Source: an uncultured Chromatiaceae bacterium
Lineage (GTDB): Bacteria; Pseudomonadota; Gammaproteobacteria; Tenderiales; Tenderiaceae
Reading direction: 5' to 3'
DNA length: 64,000 nt
Assembly: GCA_945787785.1 (NCBI GenBank)
Contig: CALZIO010000002.1
Location: 62,001-126,000, forward strand
Position numbers and translations under genes: made by a program
Notes under the pieces: model-generated
The model's database searches: none
What the model was told of the DNA's origin: nothing
What the model saw: the letters and a program-made list of their open reading frames with translations, nothing else
Shown: piece by piece, positions 9,017 through 64,000 of the stretch
Layout of the letters: each line of letters begins with the position of its first letter
How positions within the stretch are numbered: position 1 is the first letter of the stretch

Positions 9017-9802
9017 ATGGGATTTCTAGAAGGGAAACGTGCATTAATCGTCGGCCTGGCCAGTAATCGCTCCATTGCCTGGGGTGTAGCGCAGGCGATG
9101 AAAAACCAGGGAGCGGAACTCGCATTTACCTACCAGAATGATAAATTACAGTCACGCGTGGAAAAAATGGCTGCAGAGGTTGATTCTGACATCTACCTAC
9201 CCTGTGATGTGAGTAGTGACAGAGATATTGAGCGCGTATTCGAGCGCCTGGATGACTACTGGGATCATGTCGATATAATCATTCATTCTGTTGCCTTTGC
9301 CCCGCGTGAAGCGCTTGAGGGCGACTACCTGGATGCAGTCACCCGTGAGAGTTTTAATATCTCTCACGAGATCAGCTCTTACAGTTTTGCCGCGCTGGCC
9401 AAGGCCGGGCGCAACATGATGGAAGGCCGCGATGGTGCGCTACTGACGATGAGCTATCTTGGTGCCGAACGGGCCATGCCCAACTACAATGTCATGGGGC
9501 TGGCGAAAGCCAGCCTGGAAGCCAATGTGCGTTACATGGCCGAGAGCCTGGGGCCAGATGGAATTCGCGTTAATGCTGTCTCAGCAGGCCCGATCAAGAC
9601 CCTGGCCGCCGCTGGAATCAGTGACTTCCGCAAAATGTTGACCCATGTCGAAAACTTCGCACCAATGCGCCGCAACATTACCATTGAGGATGTCGGCAAT
9701 ACGGCAGCCTTCTTGTGCTCAGATCTGGCCATGGGTATCACCGGTGAGATAGTCTATGTTGACTCTGGATACAACATCGTTGGTATGGCGATGGAAGTGT
9801 AA
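9017..9802 (+). CDS. fabI: Enoyl-[acyl-carrier-protein] reductase (NADH)
   Basis: FabI catalyses the last reduction of each fatty-acid elongation cycle in the cytoplasm. The 261-residue protein has the short-chain dehydrogenase fold with the FabI-type cofactor site ([13 protein letters not shown], residues 11-23). Its catalytic residues are Tyr147, Tyr157 and Lys164, one position on from E. coli Tyr146, Tyr156 and Lys163. The length matches the E. coli enzyme (262). It stands alone on the plus strand, diverging from the peptide transporter operon across a 228-bp gap. A GTAAGGTGAAC sequence just before the ATG serves as the ribosome binding site. Confidence 0.97.
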
Positions 9803-9822
9803 GCAGACATGTCATTTAAATC

Positions 9823-9854
9823 AAAAAAGGCGAACCTTATGGCTCACCCTTTTT
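9823..9854 (+). terminator. Imperfect terminator after fabI
   Basis: An A-rich arm (AAAAAAGG), an inner imperfect stem closed by CC TTAT GG, and a CCCTTTTT arm lie 20 bases after the fabI stop. The T-run follows the stem on the plus strand. The stem has a bulge and two mismatches, so its strength is uncertain. The symmetric A and T tracts would also let it work for the convergent gene. Confidence 0.5.
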
Positions 9855-9880
9855 ATACCCTTAAGGAATTAACTTAAGAA

Positions 9881-11173
9881 CTAAGATTTGAGCTGCTGCT
9901 CTTCTTCATCCGTGGTTAATACCCGTTTCTCCCCTTCCAATTTGGCAATTATCACGGCCCCACACGAATCACCGAATACATTGACGCTGGTACGACACAT
10001 ATCCAGAATACGATCAACCGCCAGAATCAAACCAAGCGCTTCTACGGGTAAGCCAATCGTAGTAAGAATAATTGAGATCGCCACCAGACTGGCAGCCGGA
10101 ATCCCCGCCACCCCAATCGAGGTCAACAAGGCCACCACCACAATGGTAAATTGTTGAGCAAAGCTTAGATCTAATCCATAGGCCTGAGCGATAAAGATTG
10201 CCGCGACACACTCATACAGGGCTGTGCCATCCATATTCACTGTAGCCCCTAAGGGCAAGACAAAACTGCTGGTGCGATTTGAAACCTTGGCGTTCTTTTC
10301 AACACAGTCCATGGTCAGTGGCAGAGTCGCCGAAGACGATGCCGTTGAAAAAGCCGTCAACAATGCTGGTGCCATAGCACGATACATACGTAATGGATTG
10401 ACGCCTGCAACCACGCGTAACAACACCGGCATGGTGACTAGGAAATGAAATGCCAGAGCAGATAACACTGCCACCACAAACCAGGCAAGAGGTTCAAAGG
10501 CGGAGAAACCGGTACTGGCAACCACTTTGGCCACCAGGGCAAACACACCAATGGGGGCAAACTTCATCACCCAATCGGTAATCATCATCATGACTTCGAA
10601 CACAGCCTCCCAAAAGGTGTGCAAGGTGGAGGCATAACTGTGCGAAACCCGCGTCATAAAATAGCCAAACAGTAGACTGAAGAAGATCAGGCCAAGCATT
10701 TGACCATCAGCCGCGGCGGCAACGATATTGGTGGGCACCATGCGCAGGAATATTTCAGCGATATCGCCCGCCCCTCTGCCTTCCACTTTCTCTGTGATGG
10801 CCGAGACATCTTCTGACAGACCAATTAAATCCTTGGCCGGTTGACCATCAACAATACCCGGTTGCAGGGCATTTACTATTATCAAACCAATTAGGATGGC
10901 CAATAGGCTGGTTGTGGCGTAATAGAGCAATGTCTTACCGCCCAGGCGCCCAAGGTTGCCACTGGAGCCAATACCAGCAATGCCGACGATGATCGACGAA
11001 ACGATCAGCGGCACGATTAACATCTTCAAGGCATTGAGGAACAGCGTGCCGACAAAGGCAAACATGTCGTAAAAAGTAACACCAAAAATGGCGCTATCTG
11101 TGCCGGTGAGATTACCAACGATGACTGCCAGCACCAAGGCTATCAGTATTTGCCAATGTAGCTTGAGCTTCAT
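9881..11173 (-). CDS. Dicarboxylate/amino-acid:cation symporter (DAACS family)
   Basis: A 430-residue integral membrane carrier of the GltP/DctA family, importing dicarboxylates or acidic amino acids with protons or sodium. Hallmarks include the serine-rich re-entrant hairpin (AFSTASSSATLPLT), the NMDGTA motif (VNMDGTALYE) in the substrate site and the GIPAAS second hairpin. The chain starts with the typical MKLKLHWQILIALVLAVIVG segment and has about eight hydrophobic helices. The ATG at 11173 gives the expected family length. It converges with fabI. The substrate cannot be set from sequence alone. Confidence 0.92.
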   Translation of the reverse strand: MKLKLHWQILIALVLAVIVGNLTGTDSAIFGVTFYDMFAFVGTLFLNALKMLIVPLIVSSIIVGIAGIGSSGNLGRLGGKTLLYYATTSLLAILIGLIIVNALQPGIVDGQPAKDLIGLSEDVSAITEKVEGRGAGDIAEIFLRMVPTNIVAAAADGQMLGLIFFSLLFGYFMTRVSHSYASTLHTFWEAVFEVMMMITDWVMKFAPIGVFALVAKVVASTGFSAFEPLAWFVVAVLSALAFHFLVTMPVLLRVVAGVNPLRMYRAMAPALLTAFSTASSSATLPLTMDCVEKNAKVSNRTSSFVLPLGATVNMDGTALYECVAAIFIAQAYGLDLSFAQQFTIVVVALLTSIGVAGIPAASLVAISIILTTIGLPVEALGLILAVDRILDMCRTSVNVFGDSCGAVIIAKLEGEKRVLTTDEEEQQLKS

Positions 11174-57431: not shown

Positions 57432-57442
57432 CTAAGATAAAT

Positions 57443-57459
57443 TATTCCCACTCGATTGT
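57443..57459 (-). other. Attachment-site repeat, displaced guaA end (left junction)
   Basis: On the minus strand ACAATCGAGTGGGAATA encodes T-I-E-W-E and part of a stop, identical at the protein level to the last five residues of GuaA. It matches 63388-63404 at 15 of 17 positions. It is most simply explained as the original 3' end of guaA, pushed away by insertion of the island. Confidence 0.75.
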
Positions 57460-57855: not shown

Positions 57856-58827
57856 TCAATACGGAATCAGATAGTTGAGCCAGGCCTGCATGCGCAGCAT
57901 CACTTTGCGGATGATGTGGGTCGCCTTGGCGCTGTCAGTGTACACCGCTCCCGTGCCGACGGCCCCGCCTGGAACACTGGCGATGTTCATAGTAGTCAGG
58001 CCGGCTTCCTCAAAACTCTCATCAAGTTCCAGAACAATGCCGTAAGGCTGCGGAAGGGTCTGGGCACCCGGTGCGGGCGGGACGTTTCCACTCGGCGCAA
58101 GCTGACCTCCGGGGGTGATGGGCGCGCCATTAAGCACCCGGGCATTGAAGACCGTACCGGGAAGGATCTTGAAAGTGACCTCCGTCGGCATTCCAGGTCT
58201 CAAATGGCGCAGCTGATTCTGATGGATGCCCATCGTAATCTTGTTCAGATCCGTGTGGACGAAGGTCATCCAGGAGCGCAGCGGCAGGTTGGCAACCCGC
58301 TGTCCCGGCTTGAGCGTAACCCCCAGCACGAATCCCGTAGCGGGAGCCCGTACCACGGTTTGCTCCAGGTCGTATTGTGCCTGGTCCAATTGGGCGGTCA
58401 GTTGCTCTACCTCCGCCGTATAGCGGTCCACATCAATTTGGGCGGCAGCGTTCTTGCTCAACAGCTCTTGCGCACGTTTCAGGTTTATTGTTGCGAGATT
58501 GAGTTGCGCACCGAGACTGTCCACCTGGTTCTGGAACGGGCGCGGATCGATGCGGAACAGCACGTCACCCTCCTTGAGTGGGGACAGCGGCTCGACAGGA
58601 ACCTCGACGACCTTTCCCGAAACTTCAGGAATGACCTCCACGACGTACTGATACACCTGTACCGTCCCTGTAGGCGCGCCCCACTGCATGGGAATAAAAA
58701 GGGCCACCAGAAGGACAAGGATCCAGATCAGCGGAGAGATCTTCCACCAGAGGTTGAGCCGGATGACCCCGAGCTTGATCAGGAGGGCGAGGACAGCGAC
58801 ATAGCAAATCGTAAGGAAAACAATCAT
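57856..58827 (-). CDS. HlyD-family membrane fusion protein (YibH/YiaV-like)
   Basis: A 323-residue inner-membrane protein with two N-terminal helices (about 3-20 and 32-48). A periplasmic adaptor part follows: a lipoyl-like half EVIPEVSGKVVEVPV, a coiled hairpin at about 115-165 and the second half TVVRAPATGFVLGV. Adaptor proteins of this group pair with DUF3302 proteins, as YiaV-YiaW do in E. coli. The ATG overlaps the DUF3302 stop (ATGA), so they are translated together. Its DNA is clearly GC-richer than the window average, and no export pump or outer-membrane factor is nearby. Confidence 0.9.
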   Translation of the reverse strand: MIVFLTICYVAVLALLIKLGVIRLNLWWKISPLIWILVLLVALFIPMQWGAPTGTVQVYQYVVEVIPEVSGKVVEVPVEPLSPLKEGDVLFRIDPRPFQNQVDSLGAQLNLATINLKRAQELLSKNAAAQIDVDRYTAEVEQLTAQLDQAQYDLEQTVVRAPATGFVLGVTLKPGQRVANLPLRSWMTFVHTDLNKITMGIHQNQLRHLRPGMPTEVTFKILPGTVFNARVLNGAPITPGGQLAPSGNVPPAPGAQTLPQPYGIVLELDESFEEAGLTTMNIASVPGGAVGTGAVYTDSAKATHIIRKVMLRMQAWLNYLIPY

Positions 58828-59123
58828 GAATTTGCGCCTTCATCGTCCCTTGCGCCCCGGGCGGCGCTGCCGGTATCGCTCGCCTCTGCGCGCGGGCCGG
58901 AGTCGGCCGCGGGTTTGGTGTAGGCCCAGATCCACGCGATCGGCAACAACAGGCCGAAGGTGATCACACCCCACCACCCGCACACCGCGATGGCCTCGGC
59001 CTGCGGGTGATTTCGTTCCCGCGCGATCTTTCCAGGATACATGCCGAGGATCAACCAGACCGCGACTGCTGTGACCAGAAGCACAAGCAGTATGATGAGG
59101 GCGAAAATATCGATGCCTGTCAT
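58824..59123 (-). CDS. DUF3302 membrane protein (YiaW/YibI-like)
   Basis: A 99-residue protein with two hydrophobic helices (about 5-28 and 46-68) and a hydrophilic tail. The core YPGKIARERNHPQAEAIAVCGWWGVITFG is typical of DUF3302. It is followed by an overlapping HlyD-type gene, the standard partner. GGGGGAT lies a few bases before the ATG. The family's function is not known. Confidence 0.9.
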   Translation of the reverse strand: MTGIDIFALIILLVLLVTAVAVWLILGMYPGKIARERNHPQAEAIAVCGWWGVITFGLLLPIAWIWAYTKPAADSGPRAEASDTGSAARGARDDEGANS

Positions 59124-59144
59124 TCTTATCCCCCGGATGTATCC

Positions 59145-60320
59145 TTATTTCGAGCTAAACTGGCCAGTTGAGGTGATATCCATGAAATTTAACGTTGACG
59201 GATGGAACACATCTTTTATCTTAAGTTTTTTCCTGGACAGACCTTGCTCGTAGGAATACTGGAACAATGTTTCCAGTGCCTCCCGATTAGCCTCCACACC
59301 ATAGGGCCAGAAGTTCTCGCCCATCAGCGCACGTGTTTCTTCCAGCTCTTTAGCGGCCCACGGCAACGAGATCGTTGCCCACCCCATTCTTCTCAAGTCG
59401 GTATACATCATCTGCTTGGTTTGCGAATAGGCATCGAACACTGCTTCAGGCAGCCAGGGATGTTTATCTGCCAGAGAGTTGCGTATCGCGACTGCATGCA
59501 TGATGGGGAAGATGCCGGTCTTTTTATAATAGTCACGCTCGGTCTGACGGTAATCAGAGAACAGTCGGGCAACATTTGGGTGCCCCTGGACATAGGCGCG
59601 TGGCTCGGCAGCGTGGAACAGGGCGTCTACATCACCATCGACCAACAGATCAGACTCGTCTTTACCTTCAGGCCCATTTGTAACTTTCAAACCTTCAGGT
59701 ATCATCGATTCCTGCTTTGAAACCTTGCCTGCAACTTCTGCTGACGAGTCTTTAGATGACACCACCCACTCGATCTCTTCAGGTCTGACGCCATATTCAT
59801 GTTGCACGATACCTCGCAGCCATGTCAGAGACGTCGAAGAGAAACCTGGCGTCGCAACTTTTCTGCCACGCAGGTCTTCCGGTTTTTCTATGCCGCTGGC
59901 GGTATTAATAAAAATGCTTTTATGTCTGAAGACACGTATTGGGAACACGGGGATCAAACTATAGTCGCGAAAACCTTCATTGGCATAAGCAAGCATATAA
60001 GGGTGTAGTCCGATCTCTGTAACATCTCTCGTTTGAGCCCCGCTGAAAACATCGGTGTTCATATCACCAACACCTGCAACCTCGAAAGTGACATCGCAAC
60101 CTGCAACTTTCACGCGCCCATCGATCAAGCCAGCAACACGATCTAGCGCATACCCCGATAGTTTCAAAGGCAACTTCTCTGGCTTGTCGTTATTGCCTGT
60201 AGACCCGGCATAACCCGGCGCCACGTAGGCTGTACAGGCAGTTACAAGCGTGTTTCTAATAAAAGCTCGACGTGAAACATCAATAATATTTTTTTTACTG
60301 CTACCGATAGAACCTGACAT
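59145..60320 (-). CDS. Tat-exported substrate-binding-like protein (NMT1/4,5-dihydroxyphthalate decarboxylase-like)
   Basis: A 391-residue protein with a twin-arginine signal (SRRAFIR, residues 16-22) followed by a weakly hydrophobic stretch ending near GYAG. The mature part opens with LSGYALDRVAGLIDGRVKVAG and contains PVFPIRVFRHKSIFIN and LTWLRGIVQHEYGVRPEEIEW. This is the pattern of periplasmic binding-fold proteins annotated as 4,5-dihydroxyphthalate decarboxylase or NMT1-like ABC binding proteins. No permease or ATPase is nearby. It may bind a sulfated or aromatic ligand for the adjacent sulfatase; this is inference. Confidence 0.8.
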   Translation of the reverse strand: MSGSIGSSKKNIIDVSRRAFIRNTLVTACTAYVAPGYAGSTGNNDKPEKLPLKLSGYALDRVAGLIDGRVKVAGCDVTFEVAGVGDMNTDVFSGAQTRDVTEIGLHPYMLAYANEGFRDYSLIPVFPIRVFRHKSIFINTASGIEKPEDLRGRKVATPGFSSTSLTWLRGIVQHEYGVRPEEIEWVVSSKDSSAEVAGKVSKQESMIPEGLKVTNGPEGKDESDLLVDGDVDALFHAAEPRAYVQGHPNVARLFSDYRQTERDYYKKTGIFPIMHAVAIRNSLADKHPWLPEAVFDAYSQTKQMMYTDLRRMGWATISLPWAAKELEETRALMGENFWPYGVEANREALETLFQYSYEQGLSRKKLKIKDVFHPSTLNFMDITSTGQFSSK

Positions 60321-60360
60321 TTGTATCCACCTTTCACTGACGCTCTATACAACAATAAGA

Positions 60361-60396
60361 ACAAAACCACCTGCCAAACTAACGAGGTGGTTTTGT
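60361..60396. terminator. Hairpin between the sulfatase and binding-protein genes
   Basis: ACAAAACCACCT and its exact complement form a 12-bp stem around a 12-base loop, 24 bases after the sulfatase stop. T-rich arms suggest a terminator, so the binding-protein gene may have its own promoter. Confidence 0.65.
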
Positions 60397-60420
60397 TTTC
60401 TATCATATGTCCAGAGTTAT

Positions 60421-62067
60421 CTATTGAGTGGCATAAGGTGTTACCACTTCTCTCTCCTGATTAGGCAAGAGCTCGATACCCTCAAATGGTTTGCCTCGAG
60501 TTACAGGCTTGTTAGGGTACTCCTTCATCAGTTCCTGGTGTCTTGCCTTCATAGAGTCAAACGGTTCCCATGCCCACAGGAACTGCGCCATCATCGGCTG
60601 CTCTTCTTTAGGGTCACGATAGAGGTCAAAGAAACCTTTGCCCGCAAGTCCAGGGCGGTCACCTACCCAGTGACGTTTGAACTGCTGTTTCACCGTCGCC
60701 GCTAACAGAGGACCGGTGTAGATATGCACATAGTCACGACGGCCTTTGGTGTCACCGTTTAGAAACAGGGCAGTCTGGTCGACACCATCGATAACGCGGT
60801 CAGTAGGAATATGCTTCTTGGCCCCGCCGAGGTTTGCAAAGGTAGTATAAAGATCGGTCACGTGAATAATATCACCAGCAACAGATCCGGCTTCGATGGT
60901 ACCTGGCCACCTGACGAAAGCAGGCACACGCACACCGCCTTCGGTGAATGCGCCTTTGCCGCCGGTGTACAGTCCAAATGTTGACATGTGCGGGAAGAAC
61001 TCGAGCATCGGACCGTTGTCGGCCATCACGATAACGATGGTATTTTCATCGATACCTTCATCCTTCAGCAGCTGGAACATCTCGCCAAGACGCTTATCCA
61101 TGTACTCCAGGCCATCACCATCACCACCGCCTGATGAGATACTGTCACGTCCCAGTCGATGTGTTCCTGCAACGTTTGGGCCATGCCACCAGTAGTTCAA
61201 CATGAAAGGAGCATCACCTTTGGCATTGGCCTTGATGAAGTCCATCGAACGTTTATGCACCTCTTCAACGAAACGTAACTGCTCTTCATAGGAGTAATCC
61301 TTGTTGAACTGCTTCGCTTTACCGCCAGCTTTCGCCTCGGCTGCCCAGGGGATAGTGGCCGGATTTCGGAACTCTTTATCCACTGTATATGACTGGTCCT
61401 GCTGATCTTCCATCAGACCGATCGTCGCCAGGATGTCCTGACCATCCTTGTTAAAGAACTGTGAACCAAACTGGTTGTAGATGGTGAACAGGGTCTCATC
61501 ATAACCATTTTGATGTGGGTAGGAGCCATCGATATCACCAACATGGTACTTACCGAAGAACGCGGTTTTATAGCCCTCCTTCTTCAGAACTTCCGCGATG
61601 GTGACCTCATCGTTAGGCATGCCGATCGCGTGTACCGGGAACACGACCTGGGTCAGACCAGAGCGCACAGGATGTCTGCCGGTCAACGTGGCAACACGTG
61701 TCGGTGTACAGGATGGCTCGGTATACATACGGGTTAATGCCATACCTTCCTGGGCCATCTTGTCAATATTCGGGGTATCGATACCGGTCAGCTTGCTCAA
61801 CATCGGGTGGCCGACACGACCATAGGCGGCATCGTCCCACATGAAATAGATAATATTCGGACTCTTGCCATGCTTGGCTTTTAACTCGGCCAGGCGTTTG
61901 TTCAGCTGTTTATCCTCTTCTGCCCATGCAGCGCCATGTTGCTTTTGCACTTTCTGGTACTCTGCATCAAATACTATTTCTTTTGCCGAGACCGACGCTG
62001 TAAATACCGTCAGCAAGATCAACAAGATAGGGGCGCCAATGATCATACGGTTTAACATTTCATACAT
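60421..62067 (-). CDS. Periplasmic sulfatase (arylsulfatase-type, formylglycine dependent)
   Basis: A 548-residue sulfatase with an N-terminal signal peptide (MIIGAPILLILLTVFTASVSA). The catalytic site C-T-P-T-R at residues 120-124 is followed by VATLTGRHPVRSG. This is the sulfatase signature whose cysteine is converted to formylglycine. Metal ligands are visible in FMWDDAAYG and MADNGPM. The substrate class cannot be read from sequence. A formylglycine-generating enzyme is required and is not in this window. The gene diverges from the AraC-type regulator, which probably controls it. Confidence 0.92.
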   Translation of the reverse strand: MYEMLNRMIIGAPILLILLTVFTASVSAKEIVFDAEYQKVQKQHGAAWAEEDKQLNKRLAELKAKHGKSPNIIYFMWDDAAYGRVGHPMLSKLTGIDTPNIDKMAQEGMALTRMYTEPSCTPTRVATLTGRHPVRSGLTQVVFPVHAIGMPNDEVTIAEVLKKEGYKTAFFGKYHVGDIDGSYPHQNGYDETLFTIYNQFGSQFFNKDGQDILATIGLMEDQQDQSYTVDKEFRNPATIPWAAEAKAGGKAKQFNKDYSYEEQLRFVEEVHKRSMDFIKANAKGDAPFMLNYWWHGPNVAGTHRLGRDSISSGGGDGDGLEYMDKRLGEMFQLLKDEGIDENTIVIVMADNGPMLEFFPHMSTFGLYTGGKGAFTEGGVRVPAFVRWPGTIEAGSVAGDIIHVTDLYTTFANLGGAKKHIPTDRVIDGVDQTALFLNGDTKGRRDYVHIYTGPLLAATVKQQFKRHWVGDRPGLAGKGFFDLYRDPKEEQPMMAQFLWAWEPFDSMKARHQELMKEYPNKPVTRGKPFEGIELLPNQEREVVTPYATQ

Positions 62068-62248
62068 CCTCTCGGTGAATTAGTAATCTGTAATATTCGC
62101 CGATCTGCACAACTCGATCTGGCAATGAGGCCCAAGGATCGCCTAGAATTAATATTTAGCACATCAAAAATCCGAAAAATAAGCCTGTGATCCGAGTGGT
62201 CATAGGGTGATACCGATTGCTTGATGCCAAATATCGAGAGGAGTGGTA

Positions 62249-63190
62249 ATGACGCAGCATGTGTTTACAGACTTCGAGGTATTCTCCGAAACGGTGCGAG
62301 GATACGATCTCGAATGTCGGCAACTCGCGCAAGGCAGGTTCTCGGCTACCGCCTTGCAAGTCGCAACCGGCAATGTTTTGCTGAGCCGTCTAACGGCGAA
62401 CCTGGTACTGGAGGCAGAAGGCAACCCTCCTCCTGGCATGATCACTGTGGGTATTCCAACGGCGAAATGCAGGCCTTTCGTTTGGCGGCATCAGCAGACC
62501 AACGCGAAAACGCTGCAACTTTACCGGCCCGAGACAGAGCTGCTCGTCAATACCAGCGGGGCATTCGATGCTATCGACCTCTCCTTCACCGAAACCCACT
62601 TGCTGGAGGTTGCTGAGACACTTAAATTGTATGATGCATATAAGAGTCTCAAGCATGGACGCATGGTGGAGATGACGAACGATGACCTGGAAGAATTACG
62701 CCAAATGTCACAATGGCTGGTCGGACTCGCACTGACCAGACATTCCGCTGGAAACGAATCCCGCATGGCACACATCATGGAATTCACACTGCCGGGAACG
62801 CTGCTACGAATAATGGATAAACCGGCTACCACTGCTCGTGGTGGCCGTCATTCAAATAGCCTGGACGCATTCAAGCGAGCCAGGTCTTATATTCATAGCC
62901 ACGATGATGCAAACATTACCGTGAGTGATTTGTGTAATCTAACCCATATGAGCGATCGGACTTTACAGAAGGTTTTTGTCGCTCAGTGTGGCGTGACACC
63001 TAAAGCCTACATTCGCGCAGTTCGTCTCAGCCGGGCTCATGCGGCATTGCTTGAAAATTGTGCCGAAACTACGAGCGTGACTGACGTCGCTAATTACTTT
63101 GGATTCTGGCATATCGGCCAGTTTGCTGCAGATTATCGAGCACTCTTTAGTGAACTGCCTTCAGAAACATTAGCGAGAGCTATATCATAG
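62249..63190 (+). CDS. AraC-family transcriptional regulator
   Basis: A 313-residue regulator (ATG at 62249, preceded by GAGAGGAG) with an unassigned N-terminal ligand domain. A C-terminal AraC double helix-turn-helix has VSDLCNLTHMSDRTLQKVFVAQCGVTPKAYIRAVRLS and a second half (VTDVANYFGFWHIGQFAADYR). It is transcribed away from the sulfatase gene across a 181-bp gap, the usual layout for a regulator of its divergent neighbour. The second half has FWHIGQFAADYR where many family members read FSHLGRFS. Confidence 0.92.
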   Translation: MTQHVFTDFEVFSETVRGYDLECRQLAQGRFSATALQVATGNVLLSRLTANLVLEAEGNPPPGMITVGIPTAKCRPFVWRHQQTNAKTLQLYRPETELLVNTSGAFDAIDLSFTETHLLEVAETLKLYDAYKSLKHGRMVEMTNDDLEELRQMSQWLVGLALTRHSAGNESRMAHIMEFTLPGTLLRIMDKPATTARGGRHSNSLDAFKRARSYIHSHDDANITVSDLCNLTHMSDRTLQKVFVAQCGVTPKAYIRAVRLSRAHAALLENCAETTSVTDVANYFGFWHIGQFAADYRALFSELPSETLARAIS

Positions 63191-63386: not shown

Positions 63387-64000
63387 CTACTCCCACTCAA
63401 TTGTTCCTGGCGGCTTACCGGTGATGTCATACACAACACGGGAAATGCCGGACACTTCATTCACGATGCGACGTGAGACGTGATCAAGAAACTCATAAGG
63501 CAGATGGGCCCAGCGTGCTGTCATGAAGTCGATGGTCTCAACCGCTCGCAGCGCAATCACATATTCATAACGACGACCATCACCTGTGACGCCGACAGAT
63601 TTGACGGGAAGAAACACAGCAAAGGCCTGCGACGTTTTGTTATAAAGATCATGCTTGCGCAGTTCTTCGATAAAGATGTGATCCGCCAAGCGCAATTCAT
63701 CGGCGAATTCTTTTTTCACCTCACCAAGGATACGCACCCCCAGGCCCGGGCCAGGGAACGGATGACGATACACCATGTCATAGGGCAACCCCAGTTCAAC
63801 ACCCAGCTTGCGCACTTCATCCTTGAACAGCTCACGCAAAGGTTCCAGCAATTCAAGTTTCATATCTTCAGGCAGTCCACCCACGTTGTGATGCGATTTA
63901 ATCACATGGGCCTTACCCGTCTTGGAGCCTGCCGACTCAATCACATCTGGATAGATCGTGCCCTGGGCCAACCATTTGGCAGCGGCAAGATTGTTGGATT
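63387..64000 (-). CDS. guaA: GMP synthase [glutamine-hydrolysing], C-terminal part
   Basis: GuaA converts XMP to GMP. The visible 204 codons cover the end of the ATP-pyrophosphatase domain ([31 protein letters not shown]) and the GuaA dimerisation domain ([17 protein letters not shown]) to the terminal KPPGTIEWE. The gene runs off the right edge. The last codons overlap the attachment repeat and are intact, so the island restored the coding end. Confidence 0.97.
63388..63404 (-). other. Attachment-site repeat, functional guaA end (right junction)
   Basis: On the minus strand ACAATTGAGTGGGAGTA covers the codons for T-I-E-W-E and the first two bases of the TAG stop of guaA. It is the second copy of the 17-bp repeat at 57443-57459, with two third-position differences. 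Confidence 0.75.

Follow-up and report, generated by a model that had tools for sequence, protein, structure and literature searches.

The 64,000-nucleotide stretch of DNA analysed here, hereafter the window, carries beside guaA an AraC-type regulator, an exported sulfatase, a protein with a twin-arginine (Tat) leader and a DUF3302-HlyD pair, raising the question of whether these five genes form one system and what such a neighbourhood might do. An earlier note on this DNA had proposed that they travel together on one island and could sense, cleave and handle a sulfated aromatic or sugar compound. All five open reading frames are present, and Pfam and NCBIfam support their assignments. They are listed below with the signals between them and the flanking repeats; the export signals (Sec-type leader, Tat motif) are motifs read directly from the sequence, without a signal-peptide predictor.

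57440..57459, minus strand: attachment site copy 2, tadA side; repeated guaA 3′ end (ACAATCGAGTGGGAATAATT) with a letter-by-letter fit to ACAATNGAGTGGGAATNNTT
57856..58827, minus strand: periplasmic adaptor of the HlyD type, its N-terminus carrying two hydrophobic segments (HlyD_D23 5e-7, slightly below the Pfam cut-off; NCBIfam match broad)
58824..59123, minus strand: DUF3302 small inner-membrane protein (PF11742 2e-20; 73.3 bits, cut-off 32)
59145..60320, minus strand: Tat-exported 4,5-dihydroxyphthalate decarboxylase relative, called the Tat protein below (leader motif SRRAFIR; NMT1-like PF09084 6e-5)
60360..60397, minus strand: perfect 13-bp inverted repeat in the gap between the sulfatase and Tat genes (folding z-score -4.96); possible terminator or attenuator
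60421..62067, minus strand: exported S1 sulfatase with a Sec-type leader (PF00884 6e-38; C120-T-P-T-R124; D78, D79, D350, N351)
62068..62242, no strand: AraC-sulfatase intergenic region, presumed from its position to be the control region
62243..63190, plus strand: transcription regulator of the AraC type, transcribed divergently to the sulfatase (Pfam HTH_18 2e-20)
63387..63404, minus strand: attachment site copy 1, guaA side; 3′ end of guaA (ACAATTGAGTGGGAGTAG), core GAGTGGGA

A small island at the 3′ end of guaA

An island of 5.9 kb lies at the guaA 3′ end, and its payload consists of the five genes alone. The guaA 3′ end at 63387-63404 recurs at 57442-57459. Two guaA-end copies bracket them exactly, the second of which (57459-57440) lies ~25 bp ahead of tadA, and three relatives have an empty site in which guaA is followed by tadA ~25 bp on (G001 and G002 of the same genus, G007 of the same family). 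When the 17-nt repeat core was searched with up to 3 mismatches, the window matched at the two ends only, and the same search of five shuffled windows gave 0, 0, 1, 0 and 0 matches. The duplicated guaA 3′ end and the empty site in relatives thus bear out the discrete island of the earlier note. Its description of the content also holds, in that a regulator and an exported sulfatase are present without a pump, and neither a permease nor a formylglycine-generating enzyme (FGE) is encoded inside the island.

Islands at guaA such as GIsul2 carry the repeat core GAGTGGGA (PMC9376610; core also PMC7775301), and the direct repeat of ICERspD18B is ACAATNGAGTGGGAATNNTT (PMC7775301). Like these, the window island is inserted into the guaA 3′ end and has a repeat with the GAGTGGGA core; unlike them, it measures 5.9 kb only, has no recognised integrase or transfer gene and carries a catabolic-type cassette as its payload. 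Among the ORFs between the two guaA-end repeats, no integrase was recognised, and none was recognised as a P4-type integrase or as AlpA.

Other guaA inserts with the same type of repeat were found in G005 and G004, at ~4.5 and 1.3 kb, respectively. That of G005, a member of the same genus, lies between guaA-end copies (L143:14900-19390) and carries LysR, DoxX-like, GST-like and LigB ring-opening dioxygenase-like genes; given this distinct insert, guaA seems to be an insertion hotspot within the genus. Beyond the second guaA-end copy of G005, downstream of guaA, there is a Gabija-like pair (L143:8187-14214) of a UvrD-type helicase, GajB (2e-176), and an OLD-type nuclease, GajA (5e-171; both PADLOC models), adjoined by an XRE-type antitoxin-like gene. 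The 1.3-kb insert of G004 (L145), also between guaA-end copies, resembles on direct reading a HigBA-type toxin-antitoxin pair.

Within the island, the AraC gene adjoining the divergent sulfatase gene suggests substrate induction, and the same divergent order occurs in L006, L008, L073, L038 and L090. The regulator partly resembles AndR, the anthranilate dioxygenase regulator, at a score under that model's cut-off, a sequence likeness that we take as a lead only. Scanning the region for promoters and terminators gave a result not above chance, with no significant promoter excess, and the inverted repeat at 60360-60397 was missed by the simple terminator scan. Because of this repeat between the sulfatase and Tat genes, one uninterrupted transcript should not be assumed. 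Further along, the DUF3302 and HlyD genes overlap by 4 bp.

A recurrent pair of sulfatase and exported decarboxylase relative

What had earlier been read as a Tat-exported protein with a binding fold is exported as proposed, but 4,5-dihydroxyphthalate decarboxylase is far nearer to it than any solute-binding protein. The top solved match by both sequence and fold is PDB 9jp7, the decarboxylase of Comamonas testosteroni KF-1. By sequence the match reaches 1e-68, with the next solved protein at 0.024; by fold it reaches 7e-31 (TM 0.86 by target length) versus 4e-11 for the sulfonate-binding SsuA, the fold comparison using a moderately confident AlphaFold2 model built from a five-row alignment (mean pLDDT 69.8). 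The two proteins share their fold and ~35% identity across nearly the whole domain, and 37 positions are identical throughout an alignment of eight exported members with five rows of the decarboxylase type (four plasmid proteins plus 9jp7), including D99, E102, R129, R132, H133, T163, W167, R169, T268, H275, Y340 and R346. Three of the four plasmid genes lie within Rieske oxygenase clusters, L099 being outside such a cluster, and plasmid records often label members of the decarboxylase family "ABC transporter substrate-binding protein."

Neither leaderless nor placed in a phthalate/Rieske cluster, the Tat protein differs from the 9jp7-type decarboxylases, which are leaderless, in being exported, and from those encoded beside Rieske oxygenase and dihydrodiol dehydrogenase genes in having a sulfatase as its neighbour. 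A Tat motif is present in the window, L005, L006, L009, L073, L094 and L095, and a lipoprotein-type leader in L008. The protein also has an extra segment and many family-specific substitutions relative to 9jp7, and at many positions where the exported family is invariant, the decarboxylase rows have another residue. These consistent substitutions suggest a different substrate, and the reaction of this putative decarboxylase may likewise differ.

The sulfatase carries the formylglycine motif C/S-x-P-x-R as SCTPTR in addition to its sulfatase domain. Its metal ligands D78, D79, D350 and N351 are invariant in nine aligned sulfatases and match those of PsFucS1 (PDB 7aj0), a fucoidan-active S1_13 sulfatase and the best solved match. 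The two share the S1 sulfatase fold, the Cys and Ca ligands and a similar N-terminal extension, but their identity is much lower than that inside the cassette family, and the correspondences are those of the metal site and the Cys. Sulfatases of two Desulfobacterota MAGs are 84-85% identical to that of the window and one of a Phycisphaerales MAG 74% (genome contig search), versus 42-48% for two full-length copies that its own genome has on contig C18. Since the window's guaA is 64-84% identical to that of other families of its class, the sulfatase has probably crossed phyla fairly recently, to judge from these identities. A very strict search (1e-140) of 398 genomes of the phylum returned the own genome only and missed G058, which was possibly not drawn. 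In the plasmid collection the best match to the sulfatase reached 39% identity and that to the Tat protein 38%, and the pair occurred in none of the regions examined. Contig C18 has a paralogous locus (L038:5297-11317) in which two sulfatases of this family stand in tandem, an AraC gene diverges from them and an Amidohydro_2 gene lies close by.

The neighbourhood search did not return the five genes as one set, as the earlier note had conceived them. What recurs is the sulfatase with the exported decarboxylase-like protein, in eight other loci of which two are near-identical (L008 and L012, Flavobacteriaceae), usually accompanied by an outer-membrane barrel and by a regulator of the AraC (or sigma-54) type. 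The hosts belong to the Gamma- and Betaproteobacteria, the Desulfobacterota and the Flavobacteriaceae. No second locus with all five genes was found among those examined, so that the five as one conserved system are not supported.

Five of the loci (L005, L006, L008, L009 and L012) were found via the sulfatase and are thus no unbiased sample; in them the pair lies within ~5 kb, the Tat gene of L009 standing ~2 kb off on the opposite strand, and L007 (Phycisphaerales), also found in this way, lacks the pair at that distance. Searches with the Tat protein only turned up G058 as the one further genome in 369 of the window's class, G801 and G1023 in 291 of the class of the Desulfobacteraceae MAG, and nothing new in 395 of that of the Flavobacteriaceae MAG (Bacteroidia). 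In all three of these genomes the family sulfatase adjoins, with the ~270-aa barrel nearby (sulfatase and barrel being partly masked in G1023). The gene orders are as follows.

G058: AraC; sulfatase - OMP - Tat protein - tyrosine phosphatase
L006: AraC; sulfatase - Tat protein - OMP start
L008: AraC; sulfatase - lipoprotein version of the Tat protein - OMP
G801: sigma-54 regulator, sulfatase - Tat amidohydrolase - Tat protein - OMP
G1023: sulfatase - Tat protein - phosphodiesterase-like gene - OMP
L005: sulfatase - OMP - DUF3302 - HlyD - OEP - OMP - Tat protein - OMP

The Tat amidohydrolase of G801 has as its closest named solved proteins ACMSD and the uracil-5-carboxylate, 5-carboxyvanillate and gamma-resorcylate decarboxylases, its top match overall being a metal-dependent hydrolase without a name. 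The ~270-aa barrel, which has no family name in Pfam or NCBIfam, is absent from the window island. Elsewhere in the same genome (contig C16, L128:3710-8700), a 43% homologue of the cassette barrel stands beside two DUF3604-type genes.

In the sulfatase tree, one clade unites the window with L005, L006 and L007 (100/100), a second L073 and L095 with the own-genome paralogue (100/100) and a third L008 with L094 (97/94). The Tat protein tree unites L005, L006 and L095 (100/99) without the window. L005/L006 and L095 therefore have Tat proteins of a common clade with sulfatases from two far clades, the L095 sulfatase being a partial row (43% of columns), and from these trees the partnership was apparently assembled more than once. 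Such repeated assembly favours a functional link over hitch-hiking.

Maturation of the sulfatase

The earlier note had made an FGE elsewhere in this genome a point on which its proposal would turn. No canonical FGE was found in this 83% complete MAG. None was recognised among its four PF03781 proteins, whose available sequence lacks the FGE cysteine pair (L003 is truncated by a contig end). The automatic FGE pattern was too strict, missing even the Phycisphaerales protein L043 with its FGE-type stretch CHASYCSSYR, seen by eye, and the other genomes were judged on C-terminal stretches. Wherever such a stretch was readable in the other cassette genomes, the Phycisphaerales one excepted, the FGE-type motif was absent; several PF03781 matches have no usable C-terminal stretch, and the Desulfofustis genome (L006) has none that is usable. 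For anSME, neither the own genome nor any of six others gave a match over the cut-off; the Desulfobacteraceae MAG has one of 236 bits, below the cut-off of 349.

Possible function of the pair and place of the DUF3302-HlyD module

Our preferred reading, to which we assign a probability of about 0.48, is an AraC-regulated periplasmic module in which an aromatic sulfate ester is desulfated and the Tat protein then acts on the product. The regulator would turn on the Sec-exported S1 sulfatase and the Tat-exported, decarboxylase-derived protein; the sulfatase would strip the sulfate off an aromatic ester that is phenolic and probably carboxylated, and the Tat protein would then convert the desulfated product in the periplasm, most likely by decarboxylation. 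DUF3302-HlyD would have joined the cassette as an accessory adaptor module of the inner membrane. Given their repeated pairing in unrelated bacteria, the sulfatase and the Tat protein probably act outside the cytoplasm on sulfated aromatic compounds, and the G801 amidohydrolase, placed between the two and near ACMSD and the 5-carboxyvanillate decarboxylases, points to an aromatic-acid context. With a partner akin to an aromatic-acid decarboxylase, the sulfated aromatic envisaged earlier is thus plausible. Evidence against desulfation followed by decarboxylation comes from the fucoidan-active nearest sulfatase, the lack of a canonical FGE, the missing barrel and the hairpin between the genes. 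Searching the literature for a sulfatase combined with this decarboxylase yielded nothing usable. More tentatively, the exported branch as a whole might represent a periplasmic decarboxylase or related lyase with a dedicated sulfatase, the two making up a mobile, cross-phylum module that first desulfates and then decarboxylates sulfated aromatic acids and is matured without a canonical FGE.

We consider it rather unlikely that the Tat protein instead binds the desulfated product in the periplasm without catalysis, as a scavenger, sensor or delivery protein, with uptake by a transporter encoded elsewhere. It shares its fold with periplasmic binding proteins, SsuA and TauA ranking among the next matches by fold, Pfam names NMT1 only, and its export, via Tat here and as a lipoprotein in the Flavobacteriaceae, would suit such a role. 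However, no binding protein comes nearly as close to it as the decarboxylase does, it keeps the shared Asp/Glu/Arg/His residues, and no ABC permease or ATPase was recognised beside its gene in the loci examined; a plain solute-binding protein is weakened by the fold match and the gene context alike. The fucoidan-active PsFucS1, as the closest solved sulfatase, opens the possibility of a sugar sulfate as substrate, and the cassette might then serve to scavenge the sulfate carried by a sugar or a piece of polysaccharide, with the Tat protein in a side role. This we hold to be improbable, as no glycoside hydrolase or sugar transporter was recognised in the examined cassettes and the recurrent partner comes from an aromatic-acid enzyme family.

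Least probable of all, in our estimate, is that the five genes are one device in which DUF3302-HlyD, a member of the set in the earlier note, is an essential export or envelope part of the sulfatase system. The ~22-bp gap from the end of the Tat gene to the start of DUF3302 speaks for it, as do L005, which clusters sulfatase, DUF3302, HlyD, a TolC-type OEP and the Tat protein, the loci L124 and L125, found via DUF3302 with an S1 sulfatase within ~0.6-4 kb, and an AraC-sulfatase-HlyD-OMP arrangement in Ruegeria AD91A. Yet DUF3302-HlyD occurs with this sulfatase family in the window and one Desulfobacteraceae MAG and is absent from the other core loci. Its nearest relatives (HlyD 58-65%; own contig C66, G058 contig C132 and G293) have no sulfatase of this family adjoining, G058 has its core cassette and the pair on separate contigs, and the GC content of DUF3302-HlyD is near 59% versus ~50% for the remaining genes. 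The pair is a separable module; its mixed neighbourhoods make an occasional association with periplasmic hydrolases likely, a fixed one not.

DUF3302 is present in 11/360 genomes of the class searched. In L125 (499-9828), genes for a LysM-sulfatase, a LysM-DUF1254/DUF1214 protein, a tyrosine phosphatase, DUF3302, HlyD and an OEP stand in a row, and Rhizobium and Microvirga plasmids have the DUF3302-HlyD pair upstream of DUF1254 genes. The phosphatase adjoining the L073 cassette (9173-10063) is of the same family as that of L125. DUF3302 was also found in the E. coli control genome, where we take the counterpart of the pair to be of the YiaW/YiaV type. Like the E. coli pair, that of the window is a two-gene membrane pair without a pump; unlike it, it sits on an island beside a sulfatase cassette. 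Literature searches on DUF3302 and YiaV/YibH yielded nothing usable.

The locus adds a small catabolic-type payload in a guaA-type island without its own integrase, and it raises the question of how such sulfatases mature where the genome has no recognisable FGE or anSME. If the preferred reading of desulfation followed by most likely decarboxylation is true, a module of two enzymes would dismantle aromatic sulfate esters outside the cytoplasm, with one of the enzymes wearing the fold of a transport binding protein.
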